From a virus, in the IMG/VR virus record IMGVR_UViG_3300031539_000350, positions 1 to 21,982 of that record: a DNA stretch of 21,982 nt; one strand, written 5' to 3'. Each line of letters starts with the position of its first letter. Position 1 is the stretch's first letter. The notes below the pieces were generated by a model, which did not search any database, was not told the DNA's origin, and saw only the letters and a list, made by a program, of their open reading frames with translations. Positions 2,014 to 15,205 of this stretch are shown piece after piece. The translations under genes were made by a program, and so were the position numbers.

Positions 2014-2799
2014 CTATGCAGCTAATTCTGCGATTCTGTTGTTCATCATAATGTTGGTGTAATAACTTCTGTCTTTGGTCTCAATTATTTCATAATTCTC
2101 GTTATTATGACTGAACCAAACAATATATGATTTTCCTAGTTTTATACCAGTATTTTTCTCAATAATCATTTTATACATGGCAAGTTGAAGCGAATAAATT
2201 TCCAAATCACTGTCTTCCAACATAAATAATTCATCATGAAAATGTCGGGACTTCATTTCCTTATCGAATTTCTTGTTGGTTTTCCAGTCCCAAATTTGGA
2301 ACTGTTTCATTTTTACGTTATAAAATAGGATATCGAGCATTCCACCAATTAATGACTCTCTATCGTATATTATCATCTCTGTTCGTATCGGAATGAGTTT
2401 TCCTTGAATATCGTTATAGAAATTATCAACATGTTTTTTCGTTATCTCGTATTCCGGTAAAACCGGGTCAAATCCGAATTCGTCAAGAATCTGTTGTTTC
2501 GGATAGGGGAATATTTTATTTAAAAACAATCTTTCTGCGTAGTCATGGATTGCCGAACCTTTCATTGTGCCCTTTTTGTTTATAAATTCCCAAGCACGCA
2601 ACACTTCTCTCTGAGTAAGAGTGTATTCATTGGCTTTATAATCTGACCAATAATCTTCGTCAAATTCTTCCTGATATCGATGGATTAATGTAGTAACACT
2701 CACCAATTCTTTACCATCCACATAATATTTATGTGGTTCATCATGAAACGTGACTTCGTTAAATGAAGTGAAAAATTTATTGGGAACCTCGATGTTCAT
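2014..2799 (-). CDS. PD-(D/E)XK superfamily nuclease, RecB/Cas4-like
   Basis: A 261-aa protein with the ordered motifs of RecB-type PD-(D/E)XK exonucleases: G81-S-A-I-H85 (GxxxH, metal-binding His), Glu141, GGMLD156 (the catalytic Asp), IWDWK with D171 and K173, and Q205-LAMY209 (QxxxY). All catalytic positions are present, so it is probably active on DNA ends. The length fits single-domain phage members. There is no helicase domain and no cysteine cluster, so an AddB or iron-sulfur Cas4 type is unlikely. It follows the hub gene by 21 bp in a structural operon, so a role in DNA processing late in infection or host DNA degradation is possible but inferred. Confidence 0.82.
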   Translation of the reverse strand: MNIEVPNKFFTSFNEVTFHDEPHKYYVDGKELVSVTTLIHRYQEEFDEDYWSDYKANEYTLTQREVLRAWEFINKKGTMKGSAIHDYAERLFLNKIFPYPKQQILDEFGFDPVLPEYEITKKHVDNFYNDIQGKLIPIRTEMIIYDRESLIGGMLDILFYNVKMKQFQIWDWKTNKKFDKEMKSRHFHDELFMLEDSDLEIYSLQLAMYKMIIEKNTGIKLGKSYIVWFSHNNENYEIIETKDRSYYTNIMMNNRIAELAA

Positions 2800-2820
2800 T
2801 GCAGCAAATATACAAAAATT

Positions 2821-3714
2821 TTAGTTCGTGACAACGTTTTTCTGTAGAATGGCTTCGAATTGTATTTCTTCGAGTTTTTTAATTATGGCTGCTCTATCTG
2901 CTGCTAAACCCGGATATGGATGAATGTGGTTTAGTAATGCAATTCTAATGACCTCTAGGGCTTCAATTAAGACATCTGCACGGGCTAATGGGTGTCCTTC
3001 GGCAAATACCCTCACTCTATCCTCTGGAGTCATTCTAGCAGCTTTAAACTTGGGATTACCTTCATGTGTAATCAGGGCAATCTTATCACTTTGAATAATG
3101 GTATTACTGTAAAAATCATCATTATTACCTTCAAGTGGCTCATAAACTAATCCTATATGTGCAGGATTCTTTACATTGAGACTTAATATATCACCATCTT
3201 CGTGTTTTCCTGCTCTGAGATGCAGTTCATTTACTTTGAGTATGATATCAGCATTAACTTTACCAATAATCGCCACATCTTCTTTTGTTGGAAACACGCC
3301 AACAGCATCGGGATATGTTGTAGGTGCTTTCTGGGGTTTAGTTAAACCGAGATTGGTTGTCGAAAGCGCACTGAATCTCGAATCGAATCCGATTTTTTGT
3401 GGTTGTGAGATAATTGGACCTAACCAGAAACGACTTCTTTCTGGAAATTTATTGTCTTCAACAAAAATCCTAACCATTTCCCCAGCCTGTGGATATAGAT
3501 GGAAAAATTTGGGTTGTAAAGGGTAGCAATCCGGTAAATCACTATCTCCTGTTCTGTTATCGAGTTCAGGAATTCTAACTTTAATTATACCACCATCGGT
3601 TTCATCAACAATGCTTATAACCTCACCGTAGAAAATGGTTCTGTTTCTTTGAATGTTGGCATGTTCCTTTTTATTAGGATTGCTGGTTTGTATGATTGGC
3701 TTATCGTATGGCAT
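2821..3714 (-). CDS. Baseplate hub/spike protein with gp5-like OB-fold, no lysozyme domain
   Basis: A 297-aa protein. Residues about 25-105 (FYGEVISIVDETDGGIIKVRIPE through a YPLQPKFFHLYPQAGEMVRIFVED strand and FWLGPII) fit the N-terminal OB-fold of T4 gp5 and related VgrG-like hub proteins that link the tube to the spike. Residues about 150-235 are beta-rich with turn-forming DG/GN steps and could form a short spike or beta-helix. The last 60 residues are helical, containing HIHPYPGL. The muramidase domain found in T4 gp5 is absent, so wall digestion must be supplied by another protein. Its start overlaps the stop of the coiled-coil gene by one base, showing translational coupling. Hub assignment is fairly confident; the exact T4 counterpart is not. 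Confidence 0.75.
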   Translation of the reverse strand: MPYDKPIIQTSNPNKKEHANIQRNRTIFYGEVISIVDETDGGIIKVRIPELDNRTGDSDLPDCYPLQPKFFHLYPQAGEMVRIFVEDNKFPERSRFWLGPIISQPQKIGFDSRFSALSTTNLGLTKPQKAPTTYPDAVGVFPTKEDVAIIGKVNADIILKVNELHLRAGKHEDGDILSLNVKNPAHIGLVYEPLEGNNDDFYSNTIIQSDKIALITHEGNPKFKAARMTPEDRVRVFAEGHPLARADVLIEALEVIRIALLNHIHPYPGLAADRAAIIKKLEEIQFEAILQKNVVTN

Positions 3715-3917
3715 TATGTACTTATTTTTTCAATGATTTCCACGTAATTTTTTTCAAGTTCTTCCAACTGTCGTGCCTTTTCGTTAAGATTTATTTCAAG
3801 TTCCTCCAATTTATAGGTATCGGCAATAATTTCCTTTTTCAAGGCTTCATGTTTCACACAGATATCATTACTTATTTTAAGTAACTGTGTTGGTGTATAT
3901 CCACTTAAATTTTCCAT
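3714..3917 (-). CDS. 67-aa coiled-coil protein
   Basis: Small protein whose residues 20-65 form a strong heptad pattern (ALKKEI, LEELEINLNEKARQLEELEKN) typical of a parallel coiled coil. It overlaps both neighbours by one base (start/stop sharing), so it is translated together with the hub protein and the 136-aa protein. It may be an assembly chaperone or a structural clamp of the hub. No family recognised. Confidence 0.75.
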   Translation of the reverse strand: MENLSGYTPTQLLKISNDICVKHEALKKEIIADTYKLEELEINLNEKARQLEELEKNYVEIIEKIST

Positions 3918-4327
3918 TATTGTATTACCCCATAACCTTTTGAAAATGTTATTGTTGACCCGAATACCGAAACGGGTCCAGTTGGTGAAATACCTGCTGC
4001 TGTCAACGTGATTCCCGGTGGAATTGCCACAGAAATAAGTGCATCTTGTTGAAGTGCTTTAACAATTTCTTCAATTCTGATTCTTTCCATTATTTCATCG
4101 GGACTAATTGCTCCCGAAGGCAGCGCACCAACAGGTAATCCAGCTTCAGATTTTCTCGCAATAATACGTGATGCTATTTTTGTTGGTGACAACCCAGCAC
4201 GTAGGGGCACACCTATTAACATAAGTGGTGTGGGTACGGGTGGTGGACCACCAACTGATGAGAGGTTCAATATTTTATCGAATCCCCCAATAATTGCATC
4301 GATACTATTGAAATCAATCGCTGCCAT
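3917..4327 (-). CDS. Hypothetical 136-aa structural-operon protein
   Basis: Unrecognised. Residues 25-45 are proline- and glycine-rich (VGGPPPVPTPLMLIGVPLRAG), the middle (SPDEIMERIRIEEIVKALQQDA) is an amphipathic helix, and the rest has Gly/Pro-Thr turns with short hydrophobic strands (LISVAIPPGITLTAAG; VSVFGSTITFSKG). That C-terminal pattern resembles small beta-domains of virion proteins. It sits in an operon with the OB-fold hub protein with a one-base overlap, so a baseplate or spike component is the best guess. Confidence 0.7.
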   Translation of the reverse strand: MAAIDFNSIDAIIGGFDKILNLSSVGGPPPVPTPLMLIGVPLRAGLSPTKIASRIIARKSEAGLPVGALPSGAISPDEIMERIRIEEIVKALQQDALISVAIPPGITLTAAGISPTGPVSVFGSTITFSKGYGVIQ

Positions 4328-4328
4328 A

Positions 4329-4505
4329 TTAATTTAGGCTCTTTAGTTTTTTAATACTAATCCATTCCCAACCCAAGAATAATCTTGTACATACTCTTCT
4401 AAAACCGTTAGGTTTTGAAGTTGTAGCAAGTTGTGTACCGTCAGTCGCTCCATCTATTAGATAAACGCCAAGGAATTTTTTGTTTAATTTTTGGTCTACT
4501 ATCAT
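4329..4505 (-). CDS. Hypothetical 58-aa protein
   Basis: Short gene that fills the gap between the 450-aa and 136-aa genes. The frame begins MIVDQKLNKKFLGVYLIDGA and ends KKLKSLN; the product is basic with several aromatic residues (LFLGWEWI). It lies 5 bp after the upstream stop and 1 bp before the next ATG, the tight packing seen for every gene in this operon, and that is the main evidence that it is real. No family recognised. Confidence 0.65.
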   Translation of the reverse strand: MIVDQKLNKKFLGVYLIDGATDGTQLATTSKPNGFRRVCTRLFLGWEWISIKKLKSLN

Positions 4506-4510
4506 GATTT

Positions 4511-5863
4511 TTATGTTATTACATTTGTAACTTTCCCTAACGCACCCGTTAGGCTTGTTATAATACCAGTATACTGGTTTATTTTTTCTTTAAGTACTCT
4601 TATAATTACTGGTTTCAGTAATTTTATTAAATAAGCAACAGCTAATGCGAAAATGAATTCAGCAATCAGCCTCATTATTTCCTTTGCCATACACTTAATA
4701 CAGGTTTTGAAGTATTTCATGTCTTCACTTGCCTTATTAATTTTAACCTCACCATTATTTTGTAACGAACTCATCATACCCAATAATACTCGTACTTGTG
4801 GTGCAGTTGTCACGGCTTCCAACATTTTAATTGTGAGGGCATTGATGATTTTCTGAAAAAAACCGTCTTTAATTGTTTCCTTATTTTCTTTAGTCGCATC
4901 TTCTAATGTCGGGTCACCATTAGTACTTTCATCAATAGTTGCTTCGAATTGGTTAGCAACAAAAAATGGGTCCGTTGAACCTGATACATTTTGAATCATA
5001 TTATCTAAGTCACCGAACTGAAGTTCTGGTGCTATTAATCCACAACCCAAGTCATATGTCACGATACCAGCAGTTAATTCACGTGCTTTTTTAAGTAACT
5101 CATCTAAATCCTCTGGAGGAATCTCAAAACTATCATCATTATTAAGTACTTGTTCAAGTTGTAAACTAACTTCTAGTTCTTCGTGGTTTTGTTCTACGGT
5201 TTTATTTTGTTTTTTTGCAAGTGTACCATAAAACGCATCCATTACTTTTGTCGTAATTTCTTTTTTATCAATAAGTACGGCATCATCAATATATTGTGTA
5301 AAGAAATCCCCAATTTTTAAAGATTTAGCAGCAGTCGTGGGTCTTATTTGCATTTCATCGGTTGTGCCGTTATATTTTAACGTAAACACACTGAAATTCA
5401 CGTCACTACCTTCATTTAAAATAGCATTATAAGCACTTTGGTCAAAGTTTGGTGTTACTTTTTCATACAATAAACTGCCTTGGTCAGTAGCGGGGTTAAC
5501 TTTTAACTTTCCACCAACATCTATGTCTTTTACTGGTAACGTAATACCGTTATCCTTGAAATTGCTTCCGGTTGTAGGCAATAAATTGTCGGCATTTGAC
5601 TGAATGAATTGTTTTTTCAACACATCCTTTAATTGTGGCTCCACATTATCGATTAGGTCCGTAAACATACCACCAATAGTCTCTTTCAATGCATCGGTTC
5701 CAGCAACAGTTTTCATTACGTCAAGTAAAAAGGGCACGATGTCCTTTTTATTGTTGATTGACGGGAATAAATCTGTCTGCAATGGCTTCTTACTTTCTTG
5801 AATTAAGGAAGTATAGGAACCAATTGTAGTAAAAACATTTCTTTTGTCGTCAGCTAAACTCAT
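4511..5863 (-). CDS. 450-aa protein with hydrophobic C-terminal helix, possible tail/baseplate component
   Basis: I do not recognise the family. The first 300 residues are mixed alpha/beta and acidic, with predicted helices at 40-85 and around 225-265. Residues about 330-450 are almost entirely helical; residues 399-424 (LIAEFIFALAVAYLIKLLKPVIIRVL) are long and hydrophobic enough to cross a membrane, followed by an amphipathic Gly-containing tail (TSLTGALGKVTNVIT). A CIKC pair lies at 388-391. There is no signal peptide. It is the second gene of the leftward baseplate-type operon, overlapping the 130-aa gene by one base. A membrane-interacting tail-tip or injection protein is possible, but this is inference from the hydrophobic segment and location only. 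Confidence 0.75.
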   Translation of the reverse strand: MSLADDKRNVFTTIGSYTSLIQESKKPLQTDLFPSINNKKDIVPFLLDVMKTVAGTDALKETIGGMFTDLIDNVEPQLKDVLKKQFIQSNADNLLPTTGSNFKDNGITLPVKDIDVGGKLKVNPATDQGSLLYEKVTPNFDQSAYNAILNEGSDVNFSVFTLKYNGTTDEMQIRPTTAAKSLKIGDFFTQYIDDAVLIDKKEITTKVMDAFYGTLAKKQNKTVEQNHEELEVSLQLEQVLNNDDSFEIPPEDLDELLKKARELTAGIVTYDLGCGLIAPELQFGDLDNMIQNVSGSTDPFFVANQFEATIDESTNGDPTLEDATKENKETIKDGFFQKIINALTIKMLEAVTTAPQVRVLLGMMSSLQNNGEVKINKASEDMKYFKTCIKCMAKEIMRLIAEFIFALAVAYLIKLLKPVIIRVLKEKINQYTGIITSLTGALGKVTNVIT

Positions 5864-6255
5864 TATTCATTTTCTAATTCTTCATTACTAACACCTGTGC
5901 CTCTGGCAACGATATCCAGTAATTCGCTTTGTCTTTCACTTGTCAACTCACCCTTTTCTTGTGCTTCGGTCTTACCAAAAACAGCACCATCTTTCTTATC
6001 AAAGACAACCTCTTTTAAATACTTGAGAATCATAATTTTCTGCTCTTGGTTTTTGGCTTCGGCAGCAATCAATTTAATGATTTCACCACCTATTGCCTGA
6101 ACCTCACCGGGTTCTTTAACTTTGACTTCCCATTTATTATATAATCGGATAATTTTTGCTTTGATATTATGACTTTCATCATATATTTCCTGAAGAAGTT
6201 TATTTACACTTTCTTCATCGAATTTTAACTGTTTTCTCTTAGGACGTGGACACAT
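5863..6255 (-). CDS. Hypothetical 130-aa helical protein, first gene of leftward operon
   Basis: Starts with a basic segment (MCPRPKRKQLKF), then charged helices through residue 100, and ends with a very acidic tail (NEELENE). No enzymatic motif is seen. It is the first gene after the minus-strand GTATTTAT motif, 68 bp away, and its stop overlaps the start of the 450-aa gene. It could be an assembly chaperone or scaffold-like protein for the baseplate genes that follow. The ATG at 6255 is preceded by an A-rich leader without a Shine-Dalgarno sequence. Confidence 0.7.
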   Translation of the reverse strand: MCPRPKRKQLKFDEESVNKLLQEIYDESHNIKAKIIRLYNKWEVKVKEPGEVQAIGGEIIKLIAAEAKNQEQKIMILKYLKEVVFDKKDGAVFGKTEAQEKGELTSERQSELLDIVARGTGVSNEELENE

Positions 6256-6322
6256 AAGTGTTTAATTTTATTCTTTTTCGGTTATTTACTATTGTCTTAG
6301 CATAATTATAGTTTTAGTACAT

Positions 6323-6330
6323 ATAAATAC
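6323..6330 (-). promoter_or_regulatory. Putative phage late promoter motif GTATTTAT (minus strand)
   Basis: ATAAATAC on the plus strand, i.e. GTATTTAT in the direction of transcription, in the 81-bp gap between two leftward genes and 68 bp ahead of the ATG at 6255. It suggests that the 6255-1770 genes form their own late unit rather than relying only on read-through from the upstream genes. Confidence 0.6.
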
Positions 6331-6336
6331 GGGTTA

Positions 6337-6711
6337 TTATATTTCTGGATTGTCTTTATACCAGTCATCAAAACTAATATTTTTTCGTTGACGAGCATAT
6401 TTAAGTTTCCAATCAGCCATCCAACTCCTAATTAAAACAATACAATATGACTTACCAGTTGCCTTCTTACCACTTGGATACACAGTGTCAGGCTTAAACC
6501 TACCCACATTCAGTACTAAGTGACTTAATATTGCAAGCCTCACGTCATCATCGACAAAATGAAGGCGATATCGTTCAAGAATAGCGTCAATAAGTTTTCT
6601 AAACGGAATAAAAAGATGATTATCAAAAATTTCATTCTTTTCAACGATATCTTCGGTAGTAACATATTCTGCAAGTTTTTCTTCAACTTCTGGTGTCCAA
6701 TATTCTTTCAT
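6337..6711 (-). CDS. Short gp55-like sigma-family protein (paralogue of the 290-aa protein)
   Basis: A 124-aa protein clearly related to the 290-aa protein encoded at 7031-7903. Shared blocks are EKNEIFDNHLFIPFRKLIDAILERY (residues 24-48), a following AILSHLVLNVGRFKP (60-74), and GKSYCIVLIRSWMADW...KNISFDDW (86-117). This order (helix pair, then ...SY...I.R...) resembles sigma region 2 of T4 gp55-type late sigma factors, where the last block contacts core polymerase and the -10 DNA. It lacks the roughly 45-residue insertion and the C-terminal 120 residues of its relative. It may be an alternative sigma, an anti-sigma-like decoy or a partner. Sigma function is inferred from resemblance, not shown. 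Confidence 0.6.
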   Translation of the reverse strand: MKEYWTPEVEEKLAEYVTTEDIVEKNEIFDNHLFIPFRKLIDAILERYRLHFVDDDVRLAILSHLVLNVGRFKPDTVYPSGKKATGKSYCIVLIRSWMADWKLKYARQRKNISFDDWYKDNPEI

Positions 6712-6713
6712 AA

Positions 6714-7031
6714 TTATTTTAATTCATGTCCCTCATCCTGATAAACCCCACAAATACATGGTATGTTAAATTTAATGTGTTCAGACTTTCTAACGAAATA
6801 TAGTGCTAATGCTGGTGAATAGACATCCCGAACCATTCTTACTCCCCGATATTTCATTCGTTCTTCTTGAAATTCATTCTTTTCTTCGTAGTCGGTATGT
6901 TCATAATATTCTCGAAAAGCAGCAAATATTTCAGGTGACACTATCATCATTCTGATATCATCCCGGTGTTCATCGATGTATTTATCTAGCTTCTCGATGT
7001 TTTCCTTATTCTTAATTAAAAACTTTTCCAT
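6714..7031 (-). CDS. Hypothetical 105-aa protein between the two sigma-like genes
   Basis: Unrecognised. The N-terminal 30 residues are charged helix; a segment MMIVSPEIFAAFREYYEH is followed by MKYRGVRMVRDVYSPALALYF and a C-terminal CIC (residues about 94-96) with His near the end. Its start overlaps the stop of the 290-aa gene (TAATG) and it ends 2 bp before the 124-aa gene, so all three are translated together. Tight coupling with two sigma-like proteins makes a transcription-related role possible, but nothing in the sequence shows it. Confidence 0.7.
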   Translation of the reverse strand: MEKFLIKNKENIEKLDKYIDEHRDDIRMMIVSPEIFAAFREYYEHTDYEEKNEFQEERMKYRGVRMVRDVYSPALALYFVRKSEHIKFNIPCICGVYQDEGHELK

Positions 7032-7903
7032 TAATCTTCCATGTAATCCATTTTCTCCAGAAAATAAATTTCTTTGAATGGTTTAATACCGATTCGTATT
7101 TCTTTGGTGCTCAGACCAGTTTGTTCTTTCAGGTACAATAGAATTTTATTTTTAGCGAATTTATTTGTCACTCTTTTATTATACTTTCCTTCTGGACTGT
7201 CTTCCATAAACAAGACCTGCCAGTTCTTCAACACGTTTGCAATCGCATCACCAACAATAATTTCATTCTTTTTAATTATCGGGTCATTATCTATCCGGTC
7301 TTCAATTTTTTCAATAACGCTTTGAATTAACATTTCGAGTTTTTGCTGTTCCTCATTTTCCATCTCATATGTGTATTCGATGTTTTCATTGATTTCATCA
7401 ACGTAATCATCAAAACTCAAATTAATTTTCTTTTCAGTATAACTCTTTTTACTATGGTCTTTATAGAAATTTCTAATAATTGTCTGACAATAACTAAATG
7501 CTTTGGAGTTAAAGATTCTATATTTACATCCATCTTCACTTTCAATCATATTAGCCAATTTTTCATAGGCGTTTTCGATATGAATGAACCTATAGGCATC
7601 ACCCAATTTAGTCCATTTTTCAGTAGGGGGATTCTCACCTTTACGTTCAATTATAAATGGTTTATATTTAACCATATGGTCAATTAAATGAGCAAGTGCG
7701 TTGGTTTCGACTTCTTCCATATTATAATTTCCAATATGGATTGGATATCGTCTTAAAATAGACTGTATCATTTTTCGAAAAGGTTCAATCAGGATTTCGT
7801 TATAGAGTTTATTTTTTTCTTCCAGCGAATCAGAATGAATATAATCTAAAACTGCCTGTTCTTCCCTTTCAGCGAAATAAAGTGTGGTTGATTTAACTGC
7901 CAT
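7031..7903 (-). CDS. gp55-like late sigma factor homologue
   Basis: A 290-aa protein. Residues 28-82 (EEKNKLYNEILIEPFRKMIQSILRRY followed by ETNALAHLIDHMVKYKPF) and 133-170 (SKAFSYCQTIIRNFYKDHSKKS... LSFDDY) match the pattern of phage late sigma factors: a helix with LY...PF.K.I..I..RY, then AL.HL...KYKP, then KAFSY...I.RN, comparable to sigma region 2. Between them lies an insertion of about 50 residues. Residues 180-290 are helical; the end (LYLKEQTGLSTKEIRIGIKPFKEIYF) could be a DNA-binding helix-turn-helix. T4 gp55 needs a sliding-clamp co-activator; whether that applies here is unknown. It would direct host polymerase to late promoters, with GTATTTAT as the candidate target. Confidence 0.68.
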   Translation of the reverse strand: MAVKSTTLYFAEREEQAVLDYIHSDSLEEKNKLYNEILIEPFRKMIQSILRRYPIHIGNYNMEEVETNALAHLIDHMVKYKPFIIERKGENPPTEKWTKLGDAYRFIHIENAYEKLANMIESEDGCKYRIFNSKAFSYCQTIIRNFYKDHSKKSYTEKKINLSFDDYVDEINENIEYTYEMENEEQQKLEMLIQSVIEKIEDRIDNDPIIKKNEIIVGDAIANVLKNWQVLFMEDSPEGKYNKRVTNKFAKNKILLYLKEQTGLSTKEIRIGIKPFKEIYFLEKMDYMED

Positions 7904-7925
7904 TATTATATTGTTAACAATACAG

Positions 7926-8786
7926 TTATTTTACAACAACTTTTTGCATTTTACTTAGGTCGATTGGTCTATCGTTAGTAAAATTTGATTCCTTAGTCGC
8001 TGTTTCAAACCAGAATTTTCTCTCATCGACAGACATTGTTTTCCCATAATTATCGAATAAGCTACCTTCACGTGTTGCAAGGTGTTTGTAACCAATTTTT
8101 GGAATGCTAAAGATTTTTGATGCATTATTTAATGCTCTGAGCAGAAACTCATACATAAAAGTCAACTTAATATTGACTTTATATCCACCAAGATTCTGGA
8201 AATCAGATTTCTTAATAACAGCACCACTTAATTTAAAATCGGTATATTGTTTCAATGCGTTAGCATTTAGATAACCCATTTCTCCGTTCTCGCCAACAAA
8301 TTGTTGCGCCCAAACCGTTTCATTTGTCAACTTAATTCCTTCATTCGCAGCGTTTACCTCAATCATCATTGTGAGAAACACATCGATTTCTGGATAGACT
8401 TTAACATATTCGGTGGCTCTTTTAATATATGTGTCAGAGTATTCATCATCGAATTCAAGTACCGAAAAATAATCGGTAGTTACTGATTTGACACCAAGAT
8501 TGACTTGCGACTGATAACTCGTATCACCATCATTTTTAATTAAAACGAAGTTCTCGTGAGTGAGACTTTCATGTTTACGAATCATTGAGTCTCGCAACCC
8601 AATCATACTTTCGTCAAGTTCTGTTGGATATACAAGAACTATTGGTGTTAATGAATCGGGAACTTCCTGTTCATCAACAACGATAAGTGGTAATTCTTGT
8701 TTCTCGACACTCTCAACTGCTCTGGTAACCAATACAGACAACTCGTCATTATATTCGTGTATTGGTATGATTACTGATATATTCAT
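7926..8786 (-). CDS. Family 2 (GT-A) glycosyltransferase
   Basis: A 286-aa protein with the GT-A layout: MNISVIIPIHEYND at the N-terminus (nucleotide-sugar binding strand), a second strand ELPLIVVDEQ (31-40), and SVLEFDDEYSD at 108-118 holding the DXD-like metal-binding EFDDE. The acceptor half contains FKLSGAVIKKSDFQNLGGY, the usual GT2 segment after the DXD. No membrane helix is present, so it should be soluble. It could glycosylate virion proteins or DNA bases. It lies 22 bp upstream of the sigma gene and 32 bp downstream of a second glycosyltransferase. Confidence 0.85.
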   Translation of the reverse strand: MNISVIIPIHEYNDELSVLVTRAVESVEKQELPLIVVDEQEVPDSLTPIVLVYPTELDESMIGLRDSMIRKHESLTHENFVLIKNDGDTSYQSQVNLGVKSVTTDYFSVLEFDDEYSDTYIKRATEYVKVYPEIDVFLTMMIEVNAANEGIKLTNETVWAQQFVGENGEMGYLNANALKQYTDFKLSGAVIKKSDFQNLGGYKVNIKLTFMYEFLLRALNNASKIFSIPKIGYKHLATREGSLFDNYGKTMSVDERKFWFETATKESNFTNDRPIDLSKMQKVVVK

Positions 8787-8818
8787 TTTATATTTTTCTT
8801 TAAAATTTCTTATTATTT

Positions 8819-9991
8819 TTACAATACTGGCGGTGGATTAAATACTTCGACAGGTGGCGGTTCGGGAGTAACGGCTTTGGTAAGTAATTCCGTTCTGGCT
8901 TTAAGAACAGTTTCATAGATTTCAGTTAATCTAATTTCACTGTCTTTTTGATTGTATTTAACTACAATCTTATCCATGTTTTCATAAAGCTCATCTTTAA
9001 TTCCATCATCTAGGAACTTAACTAATACTTCACCAGCCAATAATGGAAGGTCGTAGTAATTTTCAGTCCAAACTCCACCACCATCAACAACTTTATCAAT
9101 CTTGCCGTTTTCATCTCTTTCGACCATGTATTCTGGCATGATATCGGGTTTCAAACAAATAGGAATTGTGCCTGATTTCATACATTCCAGTGGGAAAGTA
9201 CCAAAAGACGCAATTCTATCAATCCAGATTGCAGCAAAATTCTCTTTCAACCTCTTAGCGAAATCAACACGTCTCATTGGTTGTGGTGGTTTACTTTTTG
9301 TTACCATTGGGTCAAAAGTTATCCAGCTATATTGAGGATATTTACTGAAAAACAGTTTTACGAATTTCGAAATCTCGTTAGCATTTCTACCAATAACCGA
9401 AATTATTGGTTTTTGTGGTAGAGTAGATTTTTCGAAATAATCTGGAATACCAACATTATAGACCATGATATTATATTTACCCTCACCATGAAAGGTTTCC
9501 ACCCATGTTTTAAGAGTTTCTGAGGTAGTAATGATGTCATTAACACCAAATGCTGCCCAATCGGTTCCCGGTATCAGTGAGTTCATCATGTAATCAACAG
9601 ATTGTAATAATCCAACCCTTACACATGGTAGATTTTTTGTCTGCTCCATTACATTTGTGAAAACTTCAGGAATAACCATAACATCTTCGGGACCAACCAT
9701 TAGTTTTGGGTCTGCCATTGGCATGTGTGGATGGTTAGTAAGTTCTTTTTCAATCCAAGCTGGTACGACATAATCGCCCTTTTCAACCATCATAATAACT
9801 TCAAATCCCATATTTTTTGCAACACTTGCATGGAAATATATTTCATATACACTTGCAACAGGACTCATTGATTCCGGTACTGCAAATAGAAATTTTGATT
9901 TTTTGGTTGCGATTTTATTGAGAGATACTTTAATTTTCTCAATCTTTTCTAATTCAGCTTGTTCGGCTGACTTCTGTAATTCTTCGCTCAT
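8819..9991 (-). CDS. GT-B fold glycosyltransferase (GT1/GT4-like)
   Basis: A 390-aa protein. After a charged N-terminal helix, residues 33-70 (SKFLFAVPESMSPVASVYEIYFHASVAKNMGFEVIMM) form the first Rossmann domain, and 194-225 (KPIISVIGRNANEISKFV) starts the second. ASFGTFPLECMKSGTIPI (261-278) is the donor-binding motif of GT-B enzymes, in which Glu269 would hold the nucleotide sugar. The C-terminus is proline-rich (PEPPPVEVFNPPPV), unusual for the family and possibly a tether to another protein. It starts 1 bp after the HAD-like gene stop. Acceptor unknown. Confidence 0.82.
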   Translation of the reverse strand: MSEELQKSAEQAELEKIEKIKVSLNKIATKKSKFLFAVPESMSPVASVYEIYFHASVAKNMGFEVIMMVEKGDYVVPAWIEKELTNHPHMPMADPKLMVGPEDVMVIPEVFTNVMEQTKNLPCVRVGLLQSVDYMMNSLIPGTDWAAFGVNDIITTSETLKTWVETFHGEGKYNIMVYNVGIPDYFEKSTLPQKPIISVIGRNANEISKFVKLFFSKYPQYSWITFDPMVTKSKPPQPMRRVDFAKRLKENFAAIWIDRIASFGTFPLECMKSGTIPICLKPDIMPEYMVERDENGKIDKVVDGGGVWTENYYDLPLLAGEVLVKFLDDGIKDELYENMDKIVVKYNQKDSEIRLTEIYETVLKARTELLTKAVTPEPPPVEVFNPPPVL

Positions 9992-9992
9992 T

Positions 9993-10733
9993 TTATTTAC
10001 TTTTATATTTAATTATTTTTTGAAAATCTTTATTTTCGATTAAATCAACAACTTGTAGTGCATCCAGCGTACCTTCTTTTAAATCTACGTTGTATGGTCG
10101 TTTTAATTTAATTAATTTTTTACCCCAAGGCGCACCAAGTTTTATGATTTCAGGGTCTGTGGTAATTAGGACATCCACGTGTTTCCACATATCAACTGAA
10201 TTATCGAGAAATTTATAGTCTCTAAATCTACTTGAAATCTTACTTAGGAAGAAAAGAGTTGGTGGGATACTGAAACGGTTTTCAATAGATATTACTGTAA
10301 AATCTACGGTGTCTTCATACTTTTGTAAGAAATTATTTACGTCTAAATCCAATTGGGGATAGAGTTTTGGTGCTGCTCCGTGGATTTCAAACAGATAATC
10401 TTCATACATGAATCTATTATAAACTTCTCTTGCTGTTAGTGTTACTTTTTCTGCTGGTTTGAACAACATAAAATCGGCAGGTGCTTCCCCGTTTTCATCA
10501 ACCTGATAATCTATTGGATTGATTGTGTCTGGCGTTTCTTCGGGTTCACGCATTTCCTTAACTTCTTCTACAGTGTCTTTCCAACTATACTTTTTCCAGA
10601 AATCATATATATATGGAACTGCTTCTTCTGGCATATTCTCTTCACCAAATTCTTCAAGATAGAATCTATCAAATGCTGCCCATCTAGCTCTTAGAACCTC
10701 ATTTATATCTATCCCAACTTTTAATTTACCCAT
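9993..10733 (-). CDS. HAD-like protein with degenerate active site
   Basis: A 246-aa protein with the outline of the HAD fold as used in 5'-nucleotidases: KVGIDINEVL at 5-14 (motif I), TVIS at 146-149 (motif II), a Lys in the WGKKLIKLKRPYN segment (204-215), and DVLITTDPEII at 187-197 (motif IV). In motif I the usual DxD reads D9-I-N11, so the second catalytic Asp is missing and phosphatase activity is doubtful. An inserted acidic segment (60-95) replaces the usual cap. It overlaps the 95-aa gene by 8 bp and precedes two glycosyltransferases, so it may be a sugar-phosphate or nucleotide-binding helper. Fold assignment is moderate. Confidence 0.6.
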   Translation of the reverse strand: MGKLKVGIDINEVLRARWAAFDRFYLEEFGEENMPEEAVPYIYDFWKKYSWKDTVEEVKEMREPEETPDTINPIDYQVDENGEAPADFMLFKPAEKVTLTAREVYNRFMYEDYLFEIHGAAPKLYPQLDLDVNNFLQKYEDTVDFTVISIENRFSIPPTLFFLSKISSRFRDYKFLDNSVDMWKHVDVLITTDPEIIKLGAPWGKKLIKLKRPYNVDLKEGTLDALQVVDLIENKDFQKIIKYKSK

Positions 10734-11013
10734 TATTTTCTTCTTTTATTTGCTCCAACTGATTTTGGAGATGTTCTCTTAATTTTTTCATCATCTCAGT
10801 ATGCTCATTAAGTAATTCAGCATCTGTGATATATTTTGGATTAATACATTCAATCCTCGTATCCGGTGATTGTGTTGGAATCATAATTATCTCACCTTTT
10901 ATACTGGTTGGTGCGATTCTTTTTGATAGCCTATGTACGAATTCCTCAATATCTTCACTTCGAATACCTTGCACCCCGGCATATACCACAATTAATTTAT
11001 ATTCTTCTTCCAT
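10726..11013 (-). CDS. Hypothetical 95-aa protein, first gene of leftward glycosylation/sigma operon
   Basis: Begins with YKLIVVYAGVQGIRSEDIEEFVHRL, a beta-alpha unit, followed by GEIIMIPTQSPDTRIECINPKYI and a charged C-terminal helix with coiled-coil character (HTEMMKKLREHLQNQLEQIKEENN). This alpha/beta plus helix layout is small enough for a partner or regulator. It starts the leftward operon across a 109-bp divergent region from the gp26-like gene. No family recognised. Confidence 0.7.
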   Translation of the reverse strand: MEEEYKLIVVYAGVQGIRSEDIEEFVHRLSKRIAPTSIKGEIIMIPTQSPDTRIECINPKYITDAELLNEHTEMMKKLREHLQNQLEQIKEENNG

Positions 11014-11087
11014 AATAACAATTATTCTTATATATGGTAATACGAGTTTTAATTAAAAATCTTGAATGTCAAAAAATTTTTTTTCGA

Positions 11088-11095
11088 GTATTTAT
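11088..11095 (+). promoter_or_regulatory. Putative phage late promoter motif GTATTTAT
   Basis: Exact octamer, preceded by CGA and followed by TAAAAAAG, in the divergent region; 27 bp lie between its end and the ATG at 11123. The copy at 15183 shares the trailing TAAAAAA, suggesting a longer consensus for some members. Confidence 0.7.
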
Positions 11096-11122
11096 TAAAA
11101 AAGTATAAAAAATTATAAATTC

Positions 11123-12058
11123 ATGGAAAACCAGAATCAAGAACAAGTCCCTGAGAAAAGACCGATTGGAGACGTATTAAATGAATACAAAAAAATACAC
11201 GGTACTGAAAAAACTCCATTAGCACCTCCATCACCACAACAGGTAATGACTGATGCAGTACCAGCAGCTAGTAGTTTTAATCCTCATGATTATCAAGCAG
11301 CAATGTCACAGGAAACCGACCCAGATTTAATGACTTCATATGAAATCATCAAATTACCATCAAAAGGTAAGTTTTATAAAAACGGGCTTAAAGAACTTAG
11401 TGTTGAATATATGACATCGAAAGATGAAGATATTCTAACCACACCATCTTTAATTGAAAATGGTACGGTAATCGATGTGTTGTTAAGAAGAAAAATTAAA
11501 ACTCCCGGTGTTAATGCCAACGATTTATTGGTTGGTGACCGAAGTGCTATTATTTTATTCCTTCGTAGTTCAAGTTATGGTTCTGATTATGCAGTACAAG
11601 TACCGGACCCAAGAACAAATATTTTATTTAAAACAAAGGTTGATTTAAATAAATTGAAATATAAGAAAGTCAGTCAAGAACCTGATGAGAATGGGTTTTT
11701 CAGTGTTGAATTACCAATGCGTAAGAAAACTGTTAAATTTAAACTACTGACCAGTGGTGAAGAAAACATTTTATTTAAAAAAGCCGAAGCCTTTAAAGAT
11801 GCTAGTGGTGAAGAATTTAGTGAATACAGTACACTTAAATTAAAATCACATATCGTCAGTATTGGTGAGAAAACCGATAGAACATATATTAGTAAATTCG
11901 TTGATGCGATGCCAGCAATGGATGCCTTAACTATTCGTAGAAAAGTTCTGGAAGTAAGTCCTGATGTTGATATGGCTTATGAATTCCAGACCAAAGATGG
12001 TTATAAATTTAAAGCTGATTTAAGTATAGGGATAGATTTTTTTTTCCCAAACACTTAG
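11123..12058 (+). CDS. gp26-like baseplate/tail assembly protein, frameshift donor upstream of the tape measure
   Basis: A 311-aa protein. The first 70 residues are polar and proline-rich. Residues about 72-180 (IIKLPSKGKFYKNGLKELSVEYMTSKDEDILTTP, then a DLLVGDRSAIILFLRSSSYG block) match the conserved core of the T4 gp26-type baseplate protein family (LPSKG.FY...MT..DE.IL, GDR..I..R..SYG). T4 gp26 is 208 aa; the extra length is mainly N-terminal. The gene ends at TAG (12056) just after a nine-T run at 12037-12045. The -1 frame is open from 12019 to 12253, so a shift at the T-run would give a product of about 377 aa ending in the downstream domain. In lambda-like phages a gene at this place makes the tail assembly chaperones G and GT for the tape measure; I infer the same here. 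Confidence 0.82.
   Translation: MENQNQEQVPEKRPIGDVLNEYKKIHGTEKTPLAPPSPQQVMTDAVPAASSFNPHDYQAAMSQETDPDLMTSYEIIKLPSKGKFYKNGLKELSVEYMTSKDEDILTTPSLIENGTVIDVLLRRKIKTPGVNANDLLVGDRSAIILFLRSSSYGSDYAVQVPDPRTNILFKTKVDLNKLKYKKVSQEPDENGFFSVELPMRKKTVKFKLLTSGEENILFKKAEAFKDASGEEFSEYSTLKLKSHIVSIGEKTDRTYISKFVDAMPAMDALTIRRKVLEVSPDVDMAYEFQTKDGYKFKADLSIGIDFFFPNT
12037..12046 (+). promoter_or_regulatory. Candidate -1 ribosomal frameshift slippery site
   Basis: Nine T followed by C in zero-frame codons GA-T TTT TTT TTC. Both T TTT TTT and T TTT TTC fit the X XXY YYZ rule for tandem -1 slippage, with re-pairing fully possible. The -1 frame continues FPKHLAGEYKK and then into the 59-aa reading frame with no stop. 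It lies inside the only overlap (12019-12058) between the two frames. Confidence 0.7.
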
Positions 12059-12075
12059 CGGGTGAGTACAAAAAA

Positions 12076-12255
12076 ATGGTCGATGAGGAAATCTACATCC
12101 TGACCAAACACGCTAAGTTTCAAGCAGATTATGTAGAAAAATTACCAATATATCGTAGACGACATTTCTTATTTCTCTTAGAAAAAGAGAATGATGAGAT
12201 TGAGAAAATGCATGAGAAGGCACGAAACAAAAATAACTTTAGACCGGGACAGTAA
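12076..12255 (+). CDS. C-terminal extension of the gp26-like protein in the -1 frame (59-aa ORF)
   Basis: Read alone from the ATG at 12076 this gives 59 aa ending RNKNNFRPGQ. Read by -1 frameshift from the gp26-like gene it adds about 70 residues. The sequence (ILTKHAKFQADYVEKLPIYRRRHFLFLLEKENDEIEKM) has the shape of the small domain that follows gp26-type proteins in other phages: a helix, then LPIYRRRHFL like the MP.W.RR.F. segment, then a charged helix. A weak GGTGAG lies 10 bp before the ATG, so separate initiation cannot be ruled out. The stop codon lies in the loop of the terminator at 12241. A base error in the T-run would also produce this split. Confidence 0.7.
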   Translation: MVDEEIYILTKHAKFQADYVEKLPIYRRRHFLFLLEKENDEIEKMHEKARNKNNFRPGQ

Positions 12256-12297: not shown

Positions 12298-14826
12298 ATG
12301 GCAACTGGTGACTCAGCAGATAGAATAAAAAATCTTAAACTTTTAAACGATTCAATTCAGAAACAGCTTGATTTGGCTAAATCGACTAATGATGTCGATA
12401 GAGAAAGAGCACTTCTTGGTGAAAAGATTAGTAACTACGAAAAAGTCATCACTGATTTAAAAAAAGAACAACTCGACAAAGGTATTGATAATATTGCACA
12501 AATCGAGAAACTTCAAGTCGAACAGCAACAACTAGTTAAAACCGAAAAAGACCTTAATAAACAACTTGATGAAGGTATTAAAAGGAGAACGAGACAAGTC
12601 AATCTCGCCAAAGAATTAGGTGCTCAATTAAAAATTGGTTGGAAATATCTACAAGAGCAAGATAAGATTATAAAAACTACTAATCTTAATCTCGGTATGA
12701 GTGGAAATAAAGCCGTCATGATGCGTGACGCTTTTGAAAAATCTTCGAAATACGTTTTAAGATTAGGTGGAACTATTGGTGACATTCAAGGTGTAATGCA
12801 GGGTTATGCTGATGAAACTGGTCGTGCTCGTGTTATGACGGCAGAGATGGTTCAAGACATTACCGATATTGGTAAAGGTACTGGTCTCGGAATTGCTGAA
12901 GCAACCAGACTCGGAGCACAATTCGAACTAATGGGGTATAGTGCTAAAGGAATGGTAGATTATGTTCAAGGTGTCGTGGATACTAGCGAAAGAATGGGTG
13001 TTAATACTACGAAGGTTCTGAAAAATGTTAACGATAATTTCAAAAAATTAAACACATATACTTTCCAACAAGGTGTTAAGGGTTTTGCTCAAATGGCAAT
13101 GTATGCCGAAAAATTTAAAATTGATATCGGAGATGCACTGAATGCTGCTGATGTTGCACGTACTCTTGAAGGTGCAATTGACTTATCAGCACAATTACAA
13201 GTTATGGGTGGTGAATTTGCTAAAACCGACCCTTTTGAACTCTTATATCTTGGTCGTAATGACCCGGCAAAAATGCAGGAAAAACTTGCTGATATGACTA
13301 AAGGTCTTGTGACCTTCAGAAAAAATTCAGAAGGTGTTATGGAAAAATTCATCAGTCCTGCTGACCGTGATAGAATGTTTGCTGTTGAGAAATCATTGAA
13401 TATGGAAGCGGGTTCGATGGTAGTAATTGCTGAAAGACAGGCTGAAGTACAGAAAATGCGTCAACAAATGAGTGGTCTGGGATTAAGTGCTGAACAAAAA
13501 GAAGTTATTGAAGGTGCTGCGCTATGGGACCAGAAAGCAGGAAAATTCCAAGTCCAACTTGGTGAAACCATGTTAAATATAGGTGAATTAACAAAAGACC
13601 AAGCCAAGGCATTTAAAACAGAACAACTTTTATTGAAAGACCGTGCAACTGAGGCTATGACATTCGATGAAACATTCAAAGCAACCATCGAAATTCTAAA
13701 ATCGGCATTACTTCCATTATTAAAAGGAGTTAATTGGATGCTTGATAAATTCATGAAACCAATCGCTAATTTTGCTGCTAAAGGATGGGGTGGTGCTGTT
13801 ACGGCTGCTGCTGCATTAATGAGTGCTGGACTTTTATGGAAAGGTGTCACCAGTGGATTAGGTAGATTAGGAACAAAATGGATTGCTGAAGGTGGTGGAA
13901 AAGGTTTCTTAGGTGGTATGTTAGGTGGAAAGGGTTCTGCTGCTGGAAAGAGTGCTGGTGGTGCTATAATTGGGCGTGGAGCGGATTACACCGGAACTGG
14001 TCAAATTCGTAAAGGTGCTGCTGGACTCCATAAAGCAAAAGGAATGAAAAGTCTGGCTACTGGTGGTGCTATTGGTGCTGCTGCTGTCGGTATGGGTGCA
14101 GGTGTTGGATTAGCTGCTGTCGGAATATCTAAACTTGCTGATTCAATGAGTAAATTAACACCAGAACAAGCAGAAATTCTAAAAAGTATCGCTATGACAT
14201 TAGCTGTTACATTTCCACTTGCAGCAATTGGTATTGGTATTGTAGCTGCGGTAGCAGCACCAGCAGCAATTCCACTTTTGGCTTTAGGTGCTGCTTTATT
14301 AATGATGGGTGGTGCTATTGGTATTGCTGCTGGTGGAATTGGATTCATGGCAAAAGGATTCGCCACATTATTTGATTCAATAAAAGGTGTTGAAAATATT
14401 GGTGAAGTTACTGCGGGTTTAGCGGGAATGATGGCAGTCCTAACAACAGCAACAATTGCCCTCCCTGCTGCAATAGGTCTGGGTTTTGCTATTAGTAAAA
14501 TCGGAAAACATGCTGATGACCTCGTAAAAGTAGGTGCAGCATTTCAAAATATTCAAACAGTTATGTCCGGTAGTAGAGATGATTTTATTGCGGTTCAAAA
14601 TGCCGTTGAAAGTATATCGAATATGAATACCAAAGGTGGTGGAATGCTTGCAGACCTTGCAAGACTATTGAGAAAACCACTTCAAGTCGAATTTGCAAAG
14701 GGTAATGTTATGCTACATAACGATATTACACTAGATATCGATAAAACAACATTCATGCGTAAAATATATGACCCAGAAATTGCAATCCAAATGCAAGAAA
14801 GTCTAAGAATTGGAAAGGGAAGATAA
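12298..14826 (+). CDS. Tail tape measure protein
   Basis: An 842-aa protein that sets tail length and is ejected during infection. Residues 5-115 are a strong coiled coil (repeated QLDLAKS, EKLQVEQQQLVKTEKDLNKQL). The middle, to about 480, is helical and polar. Hydrophobic, Ala/Gly-rich segments that could cross a membrane lie at about 498-520, 589-612, 630-690 and 702-735, a usual tape-measure feature linked to passage of DNA through the inner membrane. The C-terminus returns to soluble sequence. It follows the frameshifted gp26-like gene, the place where tape measure genes lie after their chaperones. T4 gp29 is 590 aa; a longer protein implies a longer tail if length scales, an inference. 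Confidence 0.9.
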   Translation: MATGDSADRIKNLKLLNDSIQKQLDLAKSTNDVDRERALLGEKISNYEKVITDLKKEQLDKGIDNIAQIEKLQVEQQQLVKTEKDLNKQLDEGIKRRTRQVNLAKELGAQLKIGWKYLQEQDKIIKTTNLNLGMSGNKAVMMRDAFEKSSKYVLRLGGTIGDIQGVMQGYADETGRARVMTAEMVQDITDIGKGTGLGIAEATRLGAQFELMGYSAKGMVDYVQGVVDTSERMGVNTTKVLKNVNDNFKKLNTYTFQQGVKGFAQMAMYAEKFKIDIGDALNAADVARTLEGAIDLSAQLQVMGGEFAKTDPFELLYLGRNDPAKMQEKLADMTKGLVTFRKNSEGVMEKFISPADRDRMFAVEKSLNMEAGSMVVIAERQAEVQKMRQQMSGLGLSAEQKEVIEGAALWDQKAGKFQVQLGETMLNIGELTKDQAKAFKTEQLLLKDRATEAMTFDETFKATIEILKSALLPLLKGVNWMLDKFMKPIANFAAKGWGGAVTAAAALMSAGLLWKGVTSGLGRLGTKWIAEGGGKGFLGGMLGGKGSAAGKSAGGAIIGRGADYTGTGQIRKGAAGLHKAKGMKSLATGGAIGAAAVGMGAGVGLAAVGISKLADSMSKLTPEQAEILKSIAMTLAVTFPLAAIGIGIVAAVAAPAAIPLLALGAALLMMGGAIGIAAGGIGFMAKGFATLFDSIKGVENIGEVTAGLAGMMAVLTTATIALPAAIGLGFAISKIGKHADDLVKVGAAFQNIQTVMSGSRDDFIAVQNAVESISNMNTKGGGMLADLARLLRKPLQVEFAKGNVMLHNDITLDIDKTTFMRKIYDPEIAIQMQESLRIGKGR

Positions 14827-14915
14827 TTTTTTTTTATCTGATTTCTGAAAAATACTAGGAATTGTCATTTATTTTTTGTAACTTTGAAAAGTTTTTTCTC
14901 AAGTTCACAAACTCT

Positions 14916-15182: not shown

Positions 15183-15190
15183 GTATTTAT
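15183..15190 (+). promoter_or_regulatory. Putative phage late promoter motif GTATTTAT
   Basis: Exact octamer with the trailing TAAAAAAA shared with the copy at 11088; 15 bp lie between it and the ATG at 15206, the shortest spacing seen. Confidence 0.65.
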
Positions 15191-15205
15191 TAAAAAAAGT
15201 TATTA

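Follow-up and report, generated by a model that had tools for sequence, protein, structure and literature searches.

A conserved -1 frameshift site at the end of a gp26-like gene probably yields a tail assembly chaperone in short and long forms in a contractile-tailed phage

The gp26-like gene and the frame overlapping its end

The stretch of DNA that we analysed, referred to below as the window, is an IMG/VR virus record of 21,982 bases. It has PHROGs matches for genes of the sheath, the tube and the baseplate, indicating a phage with a contractile tail. The features of the locus considered here are the following.

11123-12058, plus strand: gp26-like protein of 311 aa, the putative short form (G, or TAC-N), assigned by PF12322, phrog_150 and AlphaFold2
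12037-12046, plus strand: slip site GA-T TTT TTT TTC with its run of nine T (T9), kept in 75/75 uncut clade members
12056-12058, plus strand: zero-frame stop codon TAG of the short form, from the sequence and its relatives
12037-12255, plus strand: -1 frame extension (T domain) of 72 codons plus TAA at 12253-12255, predicted to be helical; based on conservation, homology to the gp51 C-terminus and structure prediction
12076-12078, plus strand: internal ATG of a 59-aa frame, an ATG in 68/74 relatives
12077-12106, plus strand: possible mRNA hairpin that would pair 12077-12083 with 12100-12106, located 31 nt beyond the slip site, based on covariation
12298-14826, plus strand: putative tape measure protein of 842 aa, assigned by position

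The gp26-like protein scored above the Pfam gathering threshold for PF12322 (4.8e-8; 33.4 bits, cut-off 24.5) and also matched phrog_150, baseplate hub, in the PHROGs collection (5e-7). We folded the G and T parts separately, each from its plain frame. The AlphaFold2 model of the short form reached a pLDDT of 87.6, and two chains of the HK97 tail assembly chaperone 2ob9 took ranks 2 and 3 among the PDB structures found with this fold; these matches were not significant (probability 0.63 and 0.57, E 0.44 and 0.73), so that the model points weakly to 2ob9 as the nearest relevant solved structure. A sequence search of the PDB returned no match. With regard to the T domain, three helices were predicted, likewise with a pLDDT of 87.6, and a fold search with it gave no significant match.

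An earlier note on this DNA had placed the end of the gp26-like gene at TAG 12056, just past nine T at 12037-12045, with a -1 frame open from 12019 onward, a fusion of about 377 aa and a site of the form X XXY YYZ. The coordinates were verified. The -1 frame runs without a stop from 12019 to 12252 and ends with TAA at 12253-12255, which gives a fusion of exactly 377 aa. Since the GAT codon ends at position 12037, the T9 run holds two in-phase X XXY YYZ heptamers, T TTT TTT (12037-12043) and T TTT TTC (12040-12046), and at least one is present in 75/75 uncut clade members. The note had further identified the second domain with the 59-aa frame; the fusion itself stands, and the internal ATG does not mark where the domain begins, because the extension starts at the slip site and comprises 72 codons instead of the 59 aa that follow the ATG. 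It should be underlined that a similar -1 overlap occurs in 23/511 other ORFs of at least 100 aa (4.5%) in these AT-rich sequences. The open length alone is for this reason weak evidence, and the case for a frameshift, as far as can be judged from the sequences, rests on conservation.

Conservation of the slip site and of the -1 frame

We fetched 80 relatives from IMG/VR and used the 75 that were not cut by a contig end. In all 75 the gene ends with GAY TTT TTT TTC (or TCC/TCT) CCN and the -1 frame is open beyond the stop, so the alignment of homologues that had been proposed as a check shows both the slippery run and the -1 extension recurring. The site GAY TTT TTT TTC CCN is almost invariant in this clade. 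The run consists of nine T in 64/74 and of eight T in 10/74 sequences and is never shorter, and one in-phase heptamer is always kept: GAC TTT TTT TTC retains the second and GAT TTT TTT TCC the first.

For the codon analysis, sequences more than 90% alike were removed, leaving 51 that are still related, so that the counts do not represent independent events. The first and the second phenylalanine codon of the slip site were TTT in 51/51 each, and the third, where it encodes phenylalanine, was TTC in 49/49; elsewhere in these genes TTT makes up 81% of the phenylalanine codons. The third codon is held at TTC because C12046 is at the same time the first base of a proline codon in the -1 frame, and the -1 frame must therefore already be read at that point. 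Moreover, a -1 frame stop lies immediately 5' of the run in 13/74 relatives, which, together with this codon constraint, locates the shift inside the T run. Beyond the zero-frame stop, mismatches at the three codon positions of the -1 frame amounted to 0.21, 0.12 and 0.46, a coding-type pattern of substitution, and the extension protein is conserved starting at the slip site itself (FFFPKHLAGEYKKMVDEEIYILTKHA). As judged by comparison of the relatives, the shift site is conserved, the -1 frame is coding and its product is fused to the gp26-like protein.

The structure of the mRNA 3' of the slip site was less clear. RNAalifold predicted no consensus structure in this region. In the possible hairpin at 12077-12106, 87% of cells were paired, and the covariation exceeded that of 500/500 shuffles and of all slid controls. 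Testing of a CACTT/GGGTG hairpin gave an equivocal result. A CCC/GGG hairpin adjoining the slip site was also tested and was rejected.

The wider family and the T4 genes gp26 and gp51

A second search yielded 80 further and more diverse relatives, almost all of which carry TTT TTT TGG CCT ahead of the stop, with the T domain in the +1 frame. We then surveyed 174 complete loci with HMMs, requiring no slip motif. The T domain was found in a shifted frame in 169/174 (-1 in 79, +1 in 90) and in frame 0 in none. The five loci lacking a T HMM match include PA5oct, RAS14 and XacN1, in which T TTT TTC or T TTT TTT is followed by a recognisable extension in the -1 frame. The +1 loci share YTT followed by T, with L002, which has no YTT T, as an exception, and five of them read CTT T, as in the prfB site. 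The simplest reading of the +1 slip is accordingly slippage of tRNA-Phe or tRNA-Leu, although it may occur on CCT instead. Two loci, L127 and L192 (a Deltaproteobacteria contig), have the T domain in the -1 frame with no clear slippery heptamer; they may represent errors or a different site.

In a tree of the G domain the -1 clade of the window formed a single group (SH-aLRT 100), and the label for shift direction required at least six changes, three of these being forced by well-supported branches; this was a quick tree in which the placement of long branches is uncertain, and sequence errors may explain individual members, for example L127. We find it likely that the direction has switched repeatedly between -1 (T TTT TTY) and +1 (YTT T, usually TTT TTT TGG CCT) at the same protein position, with T4 using two genes, so that the requirement for two forms, one short and one long, would be conserved and the means of decoding interchangeable. 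We found no description in the literature of a repeated -1/+1 interchange at one position within one chaperone family.

The relation to T4 was examined at the level of protein profiles. Both T4 gp26 (208 aa) and gp51 (249 aa) belong to PF12322. A broad T domain profile matched the C-terminus of gp51 with an hhalign score of 29.3 (P 2.2e-5); 200 column shuffles gave at most 20.7, none of them as high as the observed score, and the other stretches of gp51 or gp26, excluding windows overlapping the gp51 C-terminus, gave at most 13.7. In a direct profile comparison with gp51, the extension of the window's clade alone was not significant (P 0.06-0.08). Four T domains matched phrog_634 (best 5.7e-4), whose name, 'baseplate hub assembly catalyst', is also that of gp51. 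Profile comparison thus identifies the T domain as homologous to the C-terminus of gp51, whereas T4 gp26 aligns to the short form only and ends at the shift position. Because gp26 resembles the short form only and the gp51 C-terminus resembles the T domain, we read gp26/gp51 as the two-gene counterpart, that is, T4 encodes its short and long forms as two genes on the evidence of these alignments. The T4 pair differs from the present locus in consisting of two divergently transcribed genes with no frameshift reported. The earlier note had named homologues with two independent genes as an observation that would speak against its reading; T4 has such genes, yet gp26 and gp51 are paralogues within one family, the former short and the latter long, and so speak in favour of the reading.

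The two-gene counterpart, which we reached from sequence, is not new. According to the PRFect paper (PMC10885494), Vladimirov, Gautam and Davidson (2022) reported that in T4-like phages a short gene is accompanied by a long fusion gene; they had apparently already proposed this counterpart. The phage Adele paper (PMC12846349) credits Vladimirov et al. 2022 with poly-T frameshift signals in TAC-N genes of T4-like phages. The statement in the earlier note that such control is poorly described for T4-type tails is out of date in view of that work as these two papers present it. A recoding review names T4 as an exception ('except T4') to the chaperone frameshift (PMC5009743). The present results place a G/GT frameshift within the family of T4 gp26, the very lineage named as the exception, and tie the frameshifted form to the two-gene form through direct homology.

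With regard to the distribution of the T domain outside these loci, a tblastn search with the T domain of another clade matched no isolate phage. In an alignment of loci L103-L181, 21/66 T domains weakly matched Pfam DUF6760 (best 6e-5), and DUF6760 may be this domain, carried elsewhere as a small gene of its own; papers on injection systems yielded nothing on this link.

Expression of the two forms and related chaperone systems

Taken together, these data make it highly probable, on comparative grounds, that this locus specifies two forms of a tail assembly chaperone, one short and one long, by way of a -1 ribosomal slip. One message would give both forms. The majority of ribosomes would terminate at TAG 12056 and release the 311-aa short form, while a minority would slip by -1 on the phenylalanine codons of the T9 run, with T TTT TTC as the most likely place. 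These ribosomes would move past the TAG and complete a product of 377 aa that ends in the helical T domain, the long form (GT, or TAC-NC). If lambda is a guide, the G part common to both forms would cover the tape measure protein, whose gene follows, and tail tube subunits would be recruited by the T part. We infer from this pattern the ribosomal mechanism, the proportion of short to long product and the chaperone function, and the binding of G to the tape measure and of T to the tube would be as in lambda.

T runs of 8-9 are known substrates for RNA polymerase slippage. The polymerase might accordingly add a U within the T9 run, so that a fraction of the mRNA would read the -1 frame with no ribosomal shift at all, and the runs of the clade are indeed long enough, with never fewer than eight T in 74 sequences. 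In homologous -1 loci, however, an in-phase heptamer persists where the run has only 6-7 T: the site is AGT TTT TTC (6 T) in PA5oct, TTT TTT A (7 T) in RAS14 and XacN1, and AAT TTT TTC in L176. For this reason ribosomal slippage appears more likely than polymerase slippage. Some +1 relatives, moreover, read TTC TTT TGG or TTT CTT TGG with runs of at most four T, and when the run shrinks to eight within the clade an in-phase heptamer is always left. We consider transcriptional slippage improbable.

Independent translation of the T domain from ATG 12076, which would give two separate proteins (the second of 59 aa) and no fusion, is more improbable still. Although this codon is ATG in 68/74 relatives, and although the annotation of Mel-JY01 shows an overlapping ORF of its own, other relatives have GTT, ATA or TTG at the position, and in three (L024, L028 and L029) none of the 20 codons that open the -1 frame is ATG, GTG or TTG. 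Conservation of the protein begins 13 codons 5' of the ATG, at the slip site, independent initiation leaves the fixed choice of phenylalanine codons unexplained, and the T4 homologue gp51 is a natural in-frame protein of G plus T. On these sequence comparisons translation of the T domain probably does not begin chiefly at ATG 12076, which is read as a plain methionine codon within it. Finally, homopolymers are prone to errors, but an error of sequencing or assembly that affected the T run of a truly continuous gene can be set aside as extremely improbable, because the nine T recur, together with a 100% identical protein, in three other contigs; furthermore, the two frames are kept apart in 75/75 uncut relatives from many metagenomes, and an in-frame fusion was found in 0/174 relatives.

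The -1 ribosomal slip thus being the preferred explanation, the locus can be set beside known systems. The earlier note had proposed a -1 shift, a fusion, a place ahead of the tape measure gene and an analogy to lambda G/GT, all of which held up against about 170 relatives, and the locus is best read as a further tail assembly chaperone of the lambda G/GT type, a kind already known. The frames overlap and a slippery site lies at the 3' end of the first, as in that kind, for which it also holds that the long form is a small fraction and that both forms are absent from virions. As with lambda gpG/gpGT, one gene would give a short and a -1 extended product, with the stop just past the slip site and the tape measure gene directly following; here, in contrast, the tail is contractile, the slip site is U-rich and of the Phe-Phe type and the G part belongs to PF12322, and the likeness is one of arrangement. 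The assignment of 12298-14826 as the tape measure gene is putative and based on position: the 842-aa protein had no family match in Pfam or PHROGs searches, and the syntenic gene is annotated as tape measure in Flavobacterium phage immuto, SP-15 and LIS04.

Among myoviruses, the TAC-N/TAC-NC chaperones of Vandenendeviridae and Andersonviridae, with their GTTTTT motif (PMC12846349), have a conserved -1 poly-T shift into a -1 frame with no stop, as found here, and are likened by arrangement; the phage families differ. Bacillus phage 0305phi8-36 gp143/gp144 has been argued to be a two-gene counterpart of G/GT with no frameshift (PMC2147016). The chaperone of halovirus HSTV-2, an archaeal virus, uses +1 according to the recoding review (PMC5009743) and provides a myovirus precedent for the 90 relatives with a +1 shift. 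The large natural series of one chaperone expressed by -1 shift, by +1 shift or from two genes could be used to test whether a fixed ratio of short to long form matters in contractile tails. Current records mis-annotate these genes, the extension being absent in immuto and split off in Mel-JY01.

Several observations concern the surroundings of the locus. In the window a minus-strand gene block of about 9 kb (2014-11013) separates the tail tube gene from the gp26-like gene, two genes that lie close together in immuto and SP-15; the block encodes an exonuclease (phrog_298, 1.2e-24), a GT2 glycosyltransferase and several unknowns. Within the window, 6337-6711 and 7031-7903, both on the minus strand, are neighbouring paralogues of unequal length (BLASTP 5e-14) with no family match. 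A second nine-T run, at 14827-14835, follows directly after the tape measure stop codon; a terminator hairpin was sought at this run and none was found. Stretches like AGTATTTATTAAAAAA occur at 11085-11101 and 15183-15198, shortly 5' of where the gp26-like gene and the gene for a 1090-aa protein start, and perhaps represent a late promoter element.
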